From Planctomicrobium piriforme (GTDB lineage Bacteria > Planctomycetota > Planctomycetia > Planctomycetales > Planctomycetaceae): a stretch of DNA of 64,000 bases. Both the position numbers and the translations under genes were made by a program. Shown in pieces: positions 47,144 through 56,331 of this stretch. How positions within the stretch are numbered: the stretch's first letter is position 1; each line of letters starts with the position of its first letter. The stretch is from NCBI GenBank assembly GCA_945860955.1, contig CAMATH010000016.1, forward strand, positions 1 through 64,000, given 5' to 3'. The notes under the pieces are model-generated. The model was not told the origin of the DNA. It worked only from the letters and a program-made list of their open reading frames with translations, and searched no databases.

Positions 47144-47202
47144 GTTGGGGCGCAATCGACGTTGCGGGAGGGCGAACGTCCTCGTGAGCCGCCAGTGTGC
47201 GA
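47144..47202 (+). repeat. Dispersed GAGGGCGA repeat, copy B
   Basis: 59 bp; differs from copy D (47527-47585) at only two positions. Core GCGGGAGGGCGAACGTCCTC. Same orientation as copy D. Confidence 0.9.
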
Positions 47203-47380
47203 ACAACCGCCAAACACCGCCTGCTGGGCAGCGCTCGGCATCCAACTGAACCATGTTGTCGAATTGGAATCGATGTCGTGGACACCCCAAACACGCGTTT
47301 GGACCAGCGAGAATCCAGCGGTGGCTTCCAAGGGAACGTGGGTCGATGGCTGCCCGGAGAACGTCGTATTGCGCTCGAAA

Positions 47381-47416
47381 GCACACTGGCGGCTCAGCAG
47401 GAGCTTCGCCCTCCCG
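47381..47416 (-). repeat. Dispersed GAGGGCGA repeat, copy C
   Basis: Opposite orientation to copies B and D: on the minus strand CCGGGAGGGCGAAGCTCCTG then CTGAGCCGCCAGTGTGC. With copy B it encloses an inverted-repeat-bounded segment. Confidence 0.8.
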
Positions 47417-47526
47417 GTTCATCCATGGATTTCATTTGCGCTGTATGCCGGAGGTGCGCGACCGTCTCATTGCCGGCACGCGACACCGCGCGACGCCCAA
47501 TAGACAATCGCCGGACAAACCACGTG

Positions 47527-47585
47527 GTTGGGGCGCAATCGACGTCGCGGGAGGGCGAACGTCCTCGCGAGCCGCCAGTGTGCGA
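47527..47585 (+). repeat. Dispersed GAGGGCGA repeat, copy D
   Basis: 57 of 59 bases identical to copy B; the two differences are T/C transitions. Confidence 0.9.
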
Positions 47586-47988
47586 TCACCTGCCGGACAC
47601 CATTCGCGGGGCAGCGCTCGGCCCGCCGTTTGCCGAGGAATGAACTGGGCGGACTGAAGAGCGTACGCGGCGTTGCATCGAGAGTGGCAGTTCGCCCGTA
47701 AGAACTGTCAAGTCGTTTGCGAAGTGACGTCGCTGGCTTATCGAGGCGGACATCGTCATCACCCGCCTCGTAGATTCAATCGGAGAGTCTCAACGGCGCT
47801 CAATGTCAGGTGACTCGCGACCCTCAGCCCAGAATGTCCAAGTCAACGACGATCAGGGTTTTCGCGCGGCGTTTGCAGCACTCCCACCCTCGTCCCACGC
47901 ATTGGGAACAAGCCGCTTGAATCACCCCAGGTCATTCCCAACGCACGGCGTTATCCTATGATCACGCTCGCCTCCTGGGACCAAGACC

Positions 47989-50900
47989 GTGACCGTCGTT
48001 GTCGTCGCCGAAAAACCGTCAGTCGCCCGCGATATCGCGGAGGTGTTGGGCGCGCGCACGCGGGGGCCGGGTCGGTTGCACGGCAATGGTTATGTGGTGA
48101 CCTGGGCGATCGGGCATCTCGTCGGTTTGGCGCAGCCGCATCAAATTGACCCCGTGTGGAAAGCCTGGCGCGCCGAGTCGCTCCCCATGCTGCCAACGAC
48201 CTGGCCCCTCACCGTGCTCGATTCCACACAGGAACAGTTCCGCGTGGTGAAGTCGCTGCTGAATGACCGCGCGGTGGAGTCCGTGATCTGCGCCACCGAC
48301 GCCGGCCGGGAGGGAGAGTTGATTTTCCGCTTCATCTACGAAGCAGCCGGGTGCCGCAAGCCCGTCCGCCGATTGTGGATCTCTTCACTCACGACCGCCG
48401 CGATCGAAGCGGGGCTGCGGTCCCTGAAGCCCGGCAGTCACTACGATTCGCTGGCTGCCGCCGCCCGCGGCCGGGCGCAGGCCGACTGGCTGGTCGGCCT
48501 GAATCTGTCGCGTGCCTATTCGATCGCCCACGACGAGACCTTTTCGGTTGGCCGAGTGCAGACACCCACGCTGGCGATGCTCGTCGAATGCGAGCAAGCG
48601 ATTCGCGCGTTCGTTCCCGAGAAGTACTTCGAAGTCGTCGGCACCTTCGGTACCGCGCCCTACAAGGGGACGTGGTTCAAGTTGGGTTCGGCCCCCTCCA
48701 GCGAGTCCAGTCGGCTCCCGCCCGATGGGCTACTGGCCCAAACCATCGTCGACCGTGTCAAGCGAGCCGGGACGGGGGTGATTGAGTCGATCACTCAAGA
48801 ACAGCGGAGGATGCCGCCGCCGCTCTTGTATGACCTCACCGAGTTGCAGCGGCACGCCAACCGTCTGTGGGGATTCAGCGCGCAGCGCACTCTCGAACTC
48901 GCGCAAAGCCTGTACGAATCCAAGAAGCTCATCAGCTATCCCCGCACCGACAGCCGGCATCTGTCGACGGACGTCGCCGCCACCTTGCCAGAAGTCGTGC
49001 GGACGATACAGGGGGGCTACAAAGCGCAGATCGCCGCAGGGACGGGGACCCGCGCGCTGGGCCGGCGGTTTGTCGACGATGCGAACGTGGGGGATCACCA
49101 CGCGATCATCCCGACGACCACCGACCCGACGCAGGTTTCGCTCGACGGCGATGAGCGGCGGCTGTATGACCTGATCTGCCGGCGACTGCTGATGGCGTGG
49201 CACCAGGACCATGTCTGGGCGGTGACCACCATCATCACGGCGGTGGAGTCGCGGGAACCGGTCGCTGCCGAGGTGAGACCCATTGCCGAGGTGACACCCA
49301 CAGTTCCGGCCGACTCCGTAACCATTGACCGGTTCCACTCCGCCGGCTCGGCGGTGGTCGAGCCGGGCTGGAAAGTGCTGGACGTTCCCGCGCGCAAAAA
49401 GAACGCCGAAGCCGAAGAGCAGGTACTCCCGGCCGGCCTCGCCAGAAACGCGCCGCAGCCGGTGCGCGACGTGGTCATGGTGGAAAAGCAGACCCGCCCT
49501 CCCAAGCGGTTCAACGACGCGACGCTGTTGACCGCGATGGAAACGGCGGGGAAGTCGCTGGAAGACAAAGAGCTTTCGCGGGCGATGAAAGACTGCGGAT
49601 TGGGGACGCCCGCCACCCGCGCGGCGATCATCGAAATTCTCATCACGCGGGAATATGTCATCCGTGACGGCAAGGCGCTGCAGGCCACAGACAAAGGCAT
49701 TCGGTTGATCGACGCGGTCCATCCCGCTGTCAAGAGCCCGGCGATGACCGGTCAATGGGAAGCCCGCCTGCACGCGATCCACCGGGGCGAGTCGCCGTTG
49801 TCGCCATTCATGACCGAGATCGAGACGTATGTGCGCGACGTGGTCGCGACCGTGCTGGCGGGACCGCGCGCGACACCTGCCGCCCGGTCGTTCGGCGATG
49901 AACCCGCGCCGGCGCGGAAGCTGGCTGACAGTCCTGCTGCGGCTGGGAGCACTTCTCCGGCTGGCAGCACGGCACCCGTCGACAGCACTGTTCCTGCTGG
50001 CAGCTCCGCTCCCTCCGGCAGCCCGGTTCCGTCTCGCCCGCCGTTGTCGCGCGATCTCAACGAACTGCTCAAAGGCACGTTCGGGCATTCCGGTTTTCGC
50101 CCGCATCAGGAAGCGGTCTGCGGCGCGGCTCGCGACGGCGAAGATGTGTTGCTGGTGATGCCGACCGGGGCGGGCAAGTCGCTCTGCTATCAGCTTCCGG
50201 GGCTCGCGCGGGGCGGAACGACGCTGGTGGTCAGCCCGCTCATCGCCTTGATGGAAGATCAGGTTGCCAAACTGAAGGCGTTGGGACTAAGGGCGGAGCG
50301 GATCCATTCGGGTCGGTCGCGCGTCGAATCGCGGACCGTTTGTACCGACTATCTCGCGGGAGGCCTCGACTTTCTGTTCATCGCCCCCGAGCGGCTGGGG
50401 GTACCGGGCTTCCCCGAGTTCCTCGCACGTTACAAGCCTTCGCTGATCGCCATCGACGAGGCACATTGCATTTCTCAGTGGGGGCACGACTTTCGCCCCG
50501 ACTACCGCATGCTGGGGCAACGGCTTCCGTCGCTCCGCCCGGCCCCCGTCATTGCGCTGACCGCGACCGCCACCCCCACCGTGCAACGCGACATCATCGC
50601 CCAGCTTGACCTGAAGCCCCGCAGGCGTTTCATCCATGGCTTTCGGCGAATCAACCTGGCGATCGAGGTCGTGGAGATTCCACGCCCAGACCGCATGGAG
50701 GTGATTGGGGAATTGTTGGAGGATCCCTCTCACCGGCCGGCGATCGTCTATGCGCCGTCCCGCAGAGATGCCGACGAACTCGCCCGCCAGCTCGCCGCGC
50801 AGATGCCCGCGGCCGCTTATCACGCAGGCATGCCTGCGGCGAATCGTGACCGTGTGCAGGGCCGGTTTCTGGACGGCGAGGTGGAGGTGATGGTCGCGAC

Positions 50901-52131
50901 GGTCGCGTTTGGGATGGGGATTGACAAGTCCAACGTGCGGACGGTCGCGCACCTCGCGCTGCCGCCAACGCTCGAGGGGTACTACCAGGAAATTGGCCGC
51001 GCCGGCCGCGACGGTTTGCCAGCCCGCGCGATCCTGCTGCACTCGTTCGTTGACCGCAAGACCAACGAATTCTTCCATCAGAAGAACTATCCCCCTGCGA
51101 GTGAGCTGCATGAAATCTACAAACGGCTGACTGCGGTCCCGCAGCCCAAATACGCCGTAATGGCTCGCACCCAGATGGACGAAGACCTGTTTGAGCGCGC
51201 GCTGGAGAAACTCTGGGTACACGGCGGCGCGTATGTCGACGCCGACGAACAGCTCGTGCGGGGAGACAAATCCTGGAAAGCGTCCTACGAAGTGCAGGTC
51301 GCGCACCGGCTCTTGCAATTGGAGCAGATGGAGAAATTCGCGCAGTCGCACGATTGCCGGATGACGCACCTCGTCCGGCACTTCGGCGATGAAGACGACC
51401 CTGGGACACCGTGTGGTCTGTGTGACAATTGCAACGGTGCCGGCGGCGTCGCGCAGGCGGTTCGCTCCCCGACAAAAGGTGAAACCGCCATCATGCTTGC
51501 GACGCTCGCGTCACTGGCGAATCGTCCCGACCAGTCGGTCGGCACGTTGCATCGCAACGAGGGGGCCGGGCTGGCGCGTCATGAGTATGAAACGCTCGTT
51601 TCCGCGCTGCTTCGTGGGGGAATGGTCAGCAGCCGACCGGACGTTTTTGAAAAGGATGGCAAATCGATTCCGTTCCATCGGCTTTCGTTGACACGCCTGG
51701 GGAGGAGTGCGAACGACCGGGCGATCGCCGCGTTGCAGGTGCCGGCGAAGAGAACGCCCCAGGCTCAATCGACCCGCTCTCGTGGCAAGACGAGCGCGGG
51801 GGCCAGATCGAAGCCGGGCGCGAAACCCGGATCGCGTTTTCGAAACGACACCGGGCAGAAGAGCCGGCGGCAGACGGGTCAGACCCCAGCGAACCGGGGG
51901 CCGGCCACCGGGGGGGCGTCCGCGCTCGACGCGGCGCTGCGGGCCTGGCGCAAGAAGGAGGCGGCAAAGCGGAAAGTTCCCCCGTTCCGGATTCTGACTG
52001 ACAAGGCGCTTTTGGGTATCGTTGAGTCCTGCCCGACGAGTGAAGCCGATCTGTTGGCCGTCGCGGGTGTGGGACCGACCCTGGTGGAAAAGCACGGAAA
52101 GAAGATTCTCAAGATTGTGCGGGAGTCTTGA
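47989..52131 (+). CDS. DNA topoisomerase III fused to RecQ helicase (with HRDC)
   Basis: 1380 residues in one unbroken frame from GTG 47989. N-terminal half (1-620): type IA topoisomerase III with TOPRIM DAGREGE (104-110), SVGRVQTPTLAML, and active-site Tyr317 in ISYPRTDSRHLS. A ~60-residue linker of PAGST-like repeats (630-690) precedes RecQ: Walker A PTGAGKS (726-732), IDEAHCISQWGHDFRPDY, TATATPT, AFGMGIDKSNVRTVAH, IGRAGRDG, and a zinc site with HDC plus CGLCDNC. The end (about 1308-1380) is HRDC-like (LAVAGVGPTLVEKHGKKI) after a basic linker. Expected to dissolve double Holliday junctions and remodel recombination intermediates, as the separate RecQ/Top3 pair does. Confidence 0.95.
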   Translation: MTVVVVAEKPSVARDIAEVLGARTRGPGRLHGNGYVVTWAIGHLVGLAQPHQIDPVWKAWRAESLPMLPTTWPLTVLDSTQEQFRVVKSLLNDRAVESVICATDAGREGELIFRFIYEAAGCRKPVRRLWISSLTTAAIEAGLRSLKPGSHYDSLAAAARGRAQADWLVGLNLSRAYSIAHDETFSVGRVQTPTLAMLVECEQAIRAFVPEKYFEVVGTFGTAPYKGTWFKLGSAPSSESSRLPPDGLLAQTIVDRVKRAGTGVIESITQEQRRMPPPLLYDLTELQRHANRLWGFSAQRTLELAQSLYESKKLISYPRTDSRHLSTDVAATLPEVVRTIQGGYKAQIAAGTGTRALGRRFVDDANVGDHHAIIPTTTDPTQVSLDGDERRLYDLICRRLLMAWHQDHVWAVTTIITAVESREPVAAEVRPIAEVTPTVPADSVTIDRFHSAGSAVVEPGWKVLDVPARKKNAEAEEQVLPAGLARNAPQPVRDVVMVEKQTRPPKRFNDATLLTAMETAGKSLEDKELSRAMKDCGLGTPATRAAIIEILITREYVIRDGKALQATDKGIRLIDAVHPAVKSPAMTGQWEARLHAIHRGESPLSPFMTEIETYVRDVVATVLAGPRATPAARSFGDEPAPARKLADSPAAAGSTSPAGSTAPVDSTVPAGSSAPSGSPVPSRPPLSRDLNELLKGTFGHSGFRPHQEAVCGAARDGEDVLLVMPTGAGKSLCYQLPGLARGGTTLVVSPLIALMEDQVAKLKALGLRAERIHSGRSRVESRTVCTDYLAGGLDFLFIAPERLGVPGFPEFLARYKPSLIAIDEAHCISQWGHDFRPDYRMLGQRLPSLRPAPVIALTATATPTVQRDIIAQLDLKPRRRFIHGFRRINLAIEVVEIPRPDRMEVIGELLEDPSHRPAIVYAPSRRDADELARQLAAQMPAAAYHAGMPAANRDRVQGRFLDGEVEVMVATVAFGMGIDKSNVRTVAHLALPPTLEGYYQEIGRAGRDGLPARAILLHSFVDRKTNEFFHQKNYPPASELHEIYKRLTAVPQPKYAVMARTQMDEDLFERALEKLWVHGGAYVDADEQLVRGDKSWKASYEVQVAHRLLQLEQMEKFAQSHDCRMTHLVRHFGDEDDPGTPCGLCDNCNGAGGVAQAVRSPTKGETAIMLATLASLANRPDQSVGTLHRNEGAGLARHEYETLVSALLRGGMVSSRPDVFEKDGKSIPFHRLSLTRLGRSANDRAIAALQVPAKRTPQAQSTRSRGKTSAGARSKPGAKPGSRFRNDTGQKSRRQTGQTPANRGPATGGASALDAALRAWRKKEAAKRKVPPFRILTDKALLGIVESCPTSEADLLAVAGVGPTLVEKHGKKILKIVRES

Positions 52132-53440: not shown

Positions 53441-54407
<967 letters not shown>

Positions 54408-54519: not shown

Positions 54520-54536
54520 TTGCGCATCCAGAACCC

Positions 54537-54592
54537 GAGCCGCGCCCGTCAGGAAGCGGTATTCGATTTCCGCTTCCTGACGGGCGCGGCTC
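54537..54592. repeat. Palindromic repeat family, copy 3 (perfect)
   Basis: Two perfect 23-bp inverted arms (54537-54559 and 54570-54592) with a 10-nt AT-rich loop (54560-54569). The longest perfect member; copies 1 and 2 are diverged from it. Confidence 0.95.
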
Positions 54593-54750
54593 GGCGAAAC
54601 CCCGGGCTTTCCGTCACGCGTTCCCTGGACGCCGTCGCTCTATTCGGGCAGGATGACACCTCACGCGGGGGAGCGTCGCGCAGGATCGTGAGTCGGAAAT
54701 GTTCCGGACGCGCCCGCCGACCCGCAAGGCCTCCAACAGGAGTGTCCCCC

Positions 54751-56331
54751 ATGCGGATCGGTTATGTCAGCGACGAAAACTATGTCGCCCTCGACGGTGT
54801 CTCTGTCGCCATTCGTGACGTGGCGAATCCGGGCGAATCAGAGACTTTGGGAACGCACTCACTCGCCGATGGTTCCGTCCATGCGAATCTGCCTCCGGGT
54901 GAATACGAATTCACTCTGGCTCGAACCGGCTTCGGTGGGAAGCGGGTGATCGCGCGGGTCGAGCCCGAATCTCCCCCGATCGCCTTTCGGCTGCTCAGTG
55001 AAAGCCTGCTCGGGTACGCTTGGCCGAAATGGATTACGGAAGGGAACTGGGGAGAATTCCGCGTCCACTCGAAGTGCGCGTACCATTTGTCCTTGTGGCG
55101 GTATGGCTGGCGTAAGACGCTGGTCGAGGATCTGGGCTGGTTTGACGATCATGGCCCCTCTCCGACAATGCAGTTGCTGCCCGACGGGGACTTCACCCAG
55201 ACGGGCGTGCGCTGGAATCAGACCGGATATGGCTCGGCTTGGCATCGGCAGAAGCAGCAGGCACCGCTGGGGAGCGGGTTGTATTACTACCACGTCCGCA
55301 ACGAGCGCGGCGAGTTCTTCTCGTTTCCATGGATCGTGCAACCTGCTCAACCTCATACCGCGATCTGTGTGTTGACGTCCAACGTCACCTGGAACGCGTA
55401 CAACAGTTTTGGCGGCCGCAGCAACTACGTGAACCAGCGCGAACTGCTCGCCCGCCCCACCGTTCACGCCCGGACCGACCTGGAACGATATACCGCCCCA
55501 GGGACGTGGCCTTTCGAAGAGTTTGGCGCACCGCTCTCGTTCGACCGCCCCGAGCCGGCCAATTCCATCCCGGAACAGGCCGAGATCACCGACGTGATCC
55601 ACGGCCGACTCGCGTGTGCGTACGCGCCCGGCGAGTGGCGCCTGCTCGGCTGGCTGGAACGGGAGGGTTTCGCGTACGACCTGTACTCGGAAACGGAACT
55701 GCACTTCGGCCGGATCCCGCTGGATCAGTATCAGGTGGTCGTCCTCAACACGCATAATGAATACGTCTCAAAAGAGATGTACTTCGCGCTCAAAAACTGG
55801 GTCCACCAGCGCGGCGGCCGACTGATGTATCTCGCGGGCTGCGGGTTTTTGTGCGAGTTTGAGTTCCTGGATGAAACCACGATTCGCTGTCGCCAGGAAG
55901 AACGACACGACCTGCGGGGGGAATCGGAAGCGTGCTTGCTGGGTGTCGCGTACTCCCATGATGGTTATCGCAGCGGCGCCCCCTATCGCGTTGTGGACGA
56001 AACGCACTGGGCGTTCGCGGGGACGGGGCTGCGGAATGGGGACATTTTCGGAACAAAAACTCTGAATGGCCGCACGCCCGGGGGGGCCTCCGGTTTGGAA
56101 CTCGACAAGATCTCGCCGCACTCACCCGCCAACATTCGGCATCTCGCCAAAGGAATGAACCCCAACGAGAGTGGAGCCGACTGCGTGTATTACGACACCC
56201 CCACTGGCGGCGCGGTGTTTTCCGTGGGTTCCCTGAACTGGACACTCTCCTGCCCGGTCGATGACGCGGTCTCACAAATCACCGCGAACGTCCTGAGGCG
56301 GTTTCTGGGGACCACTCTCGATGGCCAGTGA
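54751..56331 (+). CDS. N,N-dimethylformamidase large-subunit-like protein
   Basis: 526 residues from ATG 54751 (CAGGAG nearby); the longer open frame crosses the palindromic repeat. The core matches the DMFase beta-subunit family: ESLLGYAWPKWITEGNWGEF, a LTSNVTWNAYNSFGGRSNYV block, and DLYSETELHFGRI followed by VVLNTHNEYVSKEMYFALKN. Relatives occur in catabolic operons as putative amidases, most with unproven activity. Its stop overlaps the downstream MFS gene by 11 bp, so enzyme and carrier are probably co-expressed to use one substrate. Confidence 0.7.
   Translation: MRIGYVSDENYVALDGVSVAIRDVANPGESETLGTHSLADGSVHANLPPGEYEFTLARTGFGGKRVIARVEPESPPIAFRLLSESLLGYAWPKWITEGNWGEFRVHSKCAYHLSLWRYGWRKTLVEDLGWFDDHGPSPTMQLLPDGDFTQTGVRWNQTGYGSAWHRQKQQAPLGSGLYYYHVRNERGEFFSFPWIVQPAQPHTAICVLTSNVTWNAYNSFGGRSNYVNQRELLARPTVHARTDLERYTAPGTWPFEEFGAPLSFDRPEPANSIPEQAEITDVIHGRLACAYAPGEWRLLGWLEREGFAYDLYSETELHFGRIPLDQYQVVVLNTHNEYVSKEMYFALKNWVHQRGGRLMYLAGCGFLCEFEFLDETTIRCRQEERHDLRGESEACLLGVAYSHDGYRSGAPYRVVDETHWAFAGTGLRNGDIFGTKTLNGRTPGGASGLELDKISPHSPANIRHLAKGMNPNESGADCVYYDTPTGGAVFSVGSLNWTLSCPVDDAVSQITANVLRRFLGTTLDGQ

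Follow-up and report, generated by a model that had tools for sequence, protein, structure and literature searches.

A topoisomerase III-RecQ helicase fusion from a planctomycete, a candidate single-chain bacterial dissolvasome

The window analysed here is a 64,000-nucleotide stretch of the Planctomicrobium piriforme assembly GCA_945860955.1 (contig CAMATH010000016.1, positions 1 to 64,000, forward strand), and its subject is a gene in which topoisomerase III (Topo III; bacterial TopB) and a RecQ helicase are joined. An earlier interpretation made from the letters alone, the sequence-only reading, had recognised Topo III, RecQ and HRDC in one 1380-residue protein with both catalytic sets complete. 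The single open frame and the Pfam domains agree with this, and DAGREGE, Tyr317 in SYPRTDS, Walker A, DEAH and the four zinc cysteines are all found. The Topo III part spans amino acids (aa) 1-625, and the RecQ motor, zinc and winged-helix domains together span aa 689-1235; codon-position G+C is uniform over the entire frame, junction included. The features, in window coordinates, are as follows.

47989..52131, + strand: Topo III-RecQ fusion gene, single open frame of 1380 aa, GTG start
47998..48387, + strand: Toprim domain (aa 4-133, Pfam), with E8, K9, D104 and E108
48442..49809, + strand: type IA topoisomerase core (aa 152-607, Pfam Topoisom_bac, E 1e-103)
48937..48939, + strand: codon of catalytic Tyr317 (SYPRTDS), invariant in 51/51 aligned sequences
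49864..50052, + strand: linker (aa 626-688), rich in Pro/Ala/Ser/Thr, predicted disordered, fast-evolving
50098..50586, + strand: RecQ first motor domain (aa 704-866, Pfam DEAD)
50161..50181, + strand: Walker A, PTGAGKS (aa 725-731)
50455..50466, + strand: DEAH box (aa 823-826)
50695..51015, + strand: RecQ second motor domain (aa 903-1009, Pfam Helicase_C)
51097..51261, + strand: predicted small helix-turn-helix-like insert at the boundary of motor and zinc domain (aa 1037-1091, secondary structure of the model)
51295..51435, + strand: RecQ zinc-binding domain (aa 1103-1149, Pfam RecQ_Zn_bind), with C1123, C1142, C1145 and C1148
51469..51693, + strand: winged-helix domain (aa 1161-1235, from the structure model; Pfam RQC gives no match)
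51739..51924, + strand: basic disordered linker (aa 1251-1312)
51931..52119, + strand: HRDC domain (aa 1315-1377, Pfam, E 2e-19)

What lies at the locus is thus one chain in which a flexible tether connects two complete units, the Topo III core and the RecQ motor. Substitution of key residues in close homologues, which the sequence-only reading had named as fatal to its case, was looked for in an alignment of 51 fusion homologues, and the active-site positions are invariant or nearly so. Y317, R319, D104 and E108 are present in all 51, and E8 and K9 in 50 (one gap); Walker A, DEAH, the arginine finger, motifs 0-VI and the four zinc cysteines are near-invariant, the sole exceptions at the active-site positions tested being one gap and one Q830H. 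The acidic triad of Toprim is D-x-G-x-E, whereas in E. coli it is D-x-D-x-E. Its middle glycine also occurs in the TopB of Listeria, Bacteroides and planctomycetes, which are stand-alone enzymes, and so marks a subfamily and gives no ground for exclusion from TopB. Between the window fusion and that of a same-genus relative (G002), the ratio of nonsynonymous to synonymous substitution rates (dN/dS) is 0.05 and 0.17 in the two parts of Topo III, 0.085 in RecQ, 0.11 in the winged helix and 0.14 in HRDC, against 0.43-0.44 in the two linkers. Both halves of the fusion are maintained by purifying selection.

AlphaFold2 modelling with the 51 homologues gave two confident folded blocks (mean predicted local distance difference test score, pLDDT, 85) separated by a disordered linker at about 629-680. 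The predicted template modelling score (pTM) of the full-length model, 0.56, means that the mutual placement of the two blocks is not fixed. The first block resembles E. coli Topo III (Foldseek TM about 0.8 by target) and the second RecQ cores. When the RecQ half was modelled separately (pLDDT 84, pTM 0.76) the order was motor, small helix-turn-helix-like insert, zinc domain, winged helix, disordered basic stretch and HRDC, and RecQ catalytic cores align with it through the winged helix. Among the 51 aligned fusions the linker between the halves varies from 25 to 170 residues, with its position kept and its sequence not. A linker so long, unconserved and disordered, together with the pTM of 0.56, would suit an alternative that is on the whole improbable: that fusion merely provides equal expression, with the halves acting on separate substrates.

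The other outcome named as refuting by the sequence-only reading was that correction of a frameshift would disclose two separate genes. Its proposed search for other proteins with Toprim, type IA topoisomerase and RecQ domains in one chain was run, and many were found, far beyond planctomycetes. The scan of the genome collection, for which only two short patterns were used, kept 80 loci out of 104 relatives; the true range of the fusion may be wider than it shows. The kept loci are mostly single-frame fusions, from Acidobacteriota (Bryobacterales and Solibacteraceae), Competibacteraceae, one Verrucomicrobia bin and one Geobacter bin. Counted from the tables, both halves are in one frame in 27 of 40 genomes of Competibacterales, and at least 19 of the 41 sampled genomes of Bryobacterales have a single-frame fusion. 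Carriers number in the dozens of species and belong to three phyla or more; the occurrence in Acidobacteriota, Competibacterales and elsewhere rules out an invention confined to planctomycetes. In the window's own planctomycete family, ten of 170 genomes, in five genera, have the fusion. (One record named as Phycisphaerales, L124, isolate GAO1, has a fusion that nests within Competibacteraceae, and is probably misnamed or misbinned.)

Two of the ten planctomycete copies, both in draft assemblies, are interrupted, that of G002 (L050 near 10348) by a 23-base deletion and that of G103 (L075 near 2831) by one in-frame stop, and these are what an artefact of assembly or frameshift, with two genes read as one, has in its favour. 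However, there are 62 distinct single-frame fusions from independent assemblies, some on long contigs (AP025252.1 of 6.18 Mb, G317:C1 of 4.4 Mb and G303:C1 of 6.2 Mb), and the linker is conserved in place though not in sequence. Because independent single-frame fusions occur in other assemblies, the artefact explanation is refuted for practical purposes. No plasmid or phage record matches the fusion over 80% of its length, the matches being to separate TopB or RecQ.

In trees of both halves the fusions form one clade, with Shimodaira-Hasegawa-like approximate likelihood ratio test (SH-aLRT) support of 100 for Topo III and 99 for RecQ, and are far from stand-alone relatives. The fusion therefore most likely arose once and then spread, and repeated independent fusion is not needed to account for the trees. 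The few stand-alone proteins that fall within the fusion clade point to a split or loss after the fusion arose. In Bryobacterales, three genomes close to one another (L212, L213 and L214) have the RecQ-HRDC half only, in frames of 709-713 aa, and the Topo III half was not found in these genomes at the threshold used. The Topo III of Terriglobus albidus, and that of two relatives, has retained the first RecQ motor domain, which ends at the same place in all three (L142:5878-8571, L143:2-2626 and L222:3927-6551). This remnant keeps a P-loop-like GAGKT, while DEAH has become EEAE and motif III TATA has become TREQ; judged by these changes, it is catalytically dead. T. albidus also has an intact RecQ of the fusion subfamily in a frame of 731 aa about 22 kb from Topo III (L198:3552-5744). 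That RecQ is nested among fusions in a quick tree and beside them in a careful one, and may be either a pre-fusion relic or a product of splitting.

For the equal-expression alternative, the secondary split in Terriglobus and the loss of the Topo III half in some Bryobacterales count in favour, as does the arrangement in Listeria, where recQ and topB are merely adjacent genes. Against it, selection has been purifying on the dead RecQ domain of Terriglobus Topo III (dN/dS about 0.16), a hint that the parts are in contact, and the fusion persists over deep divergence in several phyla.

The topB and recQ content of 25 genomes, some of them drafts that may miss genes, was compared. The sequence-only reading had suggested looking for loss of the stand-alone genes, and in the window genome such loss is half borne out: besides the fusion there is TopA and no other TopB, yet the genome keeps a canonical RecQ, complete with RQC and HRDC (814-aa frame, contig 77). 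The remaining topA is on the same contig, about 26 kb downstream of the fusion and outside the window (G000:C16:77848-79563, - strand). Only one fusion carrier among the 25 genomes, G200, has a second TopB. At the threshold used, the fusion is the only RecQ in G193, G195, G197, G199, G200 and G201, and in several Acidobacteria both stand-alone topB and stand-alone recQ are missing.

Curated models place the halves in their families. The TopB models NF005829 (642.9 bits, cut-off 597) and TIGR01056 (555.1 bits, cut-off 515.75) and the general RecQ family model TIGR00614 (381.4 bits, cut-off 219.8) are passed, and the E. coli-type RecQ equivalog TIGR01389 is not (483.9 bits versus 640.2). Pfam RQC had no match in any of the 32 fusion members scanned. 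The view that the Topo III part lacks a C-terminal zinc tail holds, as Toprim_Crpt or weak zinc-ribbon matches are seen in stand-alone TopB and not in the fusion. The stretch at what we take to be the position of the decatenation loop is slightly shorter in the fusion in an alignment with E. coli Topo III. HRDC is missing from the Competibacterales fusions checked, and so is dispensable.

Two other identities were considered and rejected on missed curated cut-offs. Reverse gyrase is the one well-known single chain of a superfamily 2 (SF2) helicase-like module and a type IA topoisomerase, and a motor of its kind would perform ATP-driven directional strand passage (positive supercoiling). In the fusion, however, the order is the opposite, with the topoisomerase N-terminal; the helicase half is RecQ in full, zinc and winged-helix domains included; and TIGR01054, the model for reverse gyrase, gives 88.7 bits versus its cut-off of 471.7. 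A reverse-gyrase-like activity is accordingly very unlikely. Slightly less probable still is an identity as DpdF, which serves as helicase in the Dpd system of DNA modification and defence. The PADLOC model PDLC02865, labelled 'DpdF' (1499 positions), does cover aa 3-1283 at 1617 bits, a near full-length match, so that a profile library already represents this architecture. However, that label denotes a defence helicase, whereas the NCBI DpdF equivalog NF041063 gives 189.3 bits versus a cut-off of 550, far below the RecQ models; no Dpd gene is present in ten window open reading frames (ORFs) or in ten ORFs beside three other fusions, and the fusion loci have no common neighbourhood. The profile may cause automatic pipelines to mislabel fusion genes as defence proteins.

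The dissolvasome of eukaryotes combines Topo III with a RecQ-family helicase and dissolves double Holliday junctions (PMC8191776). With this RTR/BTR complex (Sgs1-Top3-Rmi1 and BLM-TOPO3A-RMI1/2) the fusion shares the use of helicase and topoisomerase as one unit, and a helicase with HRDC and winged-helix domains. It differs in being one covalent chain with Topo III first and of bacterial TopB type, and no RMI1 is seen in the chain. Its enzyme families and motifs are those of separate bacterial TopB and RecQ (as in E. coli and as neighbours in Listeria); unlike these, the two are joined, the TopB tail and a detectable RQC are gone, and in several hosts it supplies the only TopB and RecQ. No described Topo III-RecQ fusion was found in the open-licence literature.

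The reading favoured here, and thought probable, is that the fusion is a natural single-chain bacterial 'dissolvasome', a tethered strand-passage and unwinding enzyme for recombination and late-replication intermediates, much like the fixed-stoichiometry dissolvase of the sequence-only reading. The RecQ motor would move on one strand, driven by ATP, and open the duplex beside a joint molecule such as a double Holliday junction, D-loop or pair of converging forks, its unwinding driving branches together and baring single strands. The gate of the tethered Topo III would then cut a bared strand, hold it on Tyr317, pass the other strand or duplex and reseal, so that the last links (a hemicatenane) could be undone without crossover. 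The tether would stand in for the protein-protein docking of Sgs1/BLM-Top3-Rmi1, the RecQ half may substitute for the lost C-terminal tail of TopB, and a role for HRDC and the basic linker in holding branched DNA is probable. The stronger proposition, that RecQ and Topo III form a genuine dissolvasome in bacteria of several phyla, with fusion making the partnership obligatory, no RMI1-like adaptor taking part and Terriglobus Topo III marking the contact surface, is put forward tentatively, at a little below even likelihood.

Alternatively, both activities could be used jointly with precatenanes and converging forks, as replication finishes, for their main targets in place of recombination intermediates. 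This is rather unlikely, though more plausible than the other alternatives. E. coli Topo III is mainly a replication decatenase (PMC7140829), a RecQ and Topo III reaction on converging forks is reported, as represented by its citation in PMC13244152 (reference 19), and type IA enzymes require single-stranded DNA that a tethered helicase could supply. The sequence, however, does not separate such a role from one in recombination, and no replication-linked neighbour was found at the loci.

Several points weigh against a single-chain dissolvasome. Both activities, their coupling and their substrate are deduced from sequence. The fusion is rare in the window's own family (about 10 of 170 genomes), and the two interrupted planctomycete copies reflect either draft-assembly error or decay. 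Covalent linkage is dispensable, since some Bryobacterales keep the RecQ half only and the enzyme is split in Terriglobus. In E. coli, recQ deletion does not mimic topB deletion and RecG, not RecQ, has been proposed as the partner of Topo III (PMC13244152). E. coli RecQ stimulates Topo III in vitro (PMC8191776, PMC7140829), but physical interaction was not observed and joint action has been argued against (PMC7140829 section 6, PMC13244152). The partnership in bacteria was reviewed as unsupported in 2020 (PMC7140829) and argued against for E. coli in 2026 (PMC13244152), and the earlier statement that RecQ and Top3 are partners in all domains of life is too strong for bacteria.

It is because this cooperation is disputed that the fusion matters. 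With a probable single origin and a multi-phylum distribution, often as the sole Topo III and sometimes the sole RecQ, it is independent evidence of joint action where it occurs. It also offers a single polypeptide with which RMI1-free dissolution could be tested, and the natural split in Terriglobus a route to the RecQ/Topo III contact surface.

No conserved operon partner or shared neighbourhood was found across the fusion loci, with one exception: in the Competibacterales clade, five loci have a presumably hemolysin-III-like gene downstream. In the window the downstream neighbours are a P-II nitrogen regulator (54069-54407) and a DMFA2_C-domain protein (54520-56331), with no evident DNA-repair link. 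Upstream of the fusion, intergenic sequence at 47144-47622 has a 96-base repeat in two copies (88% identical) together with inverted partners, perhaps members of a dispersed palindromic repeat family.

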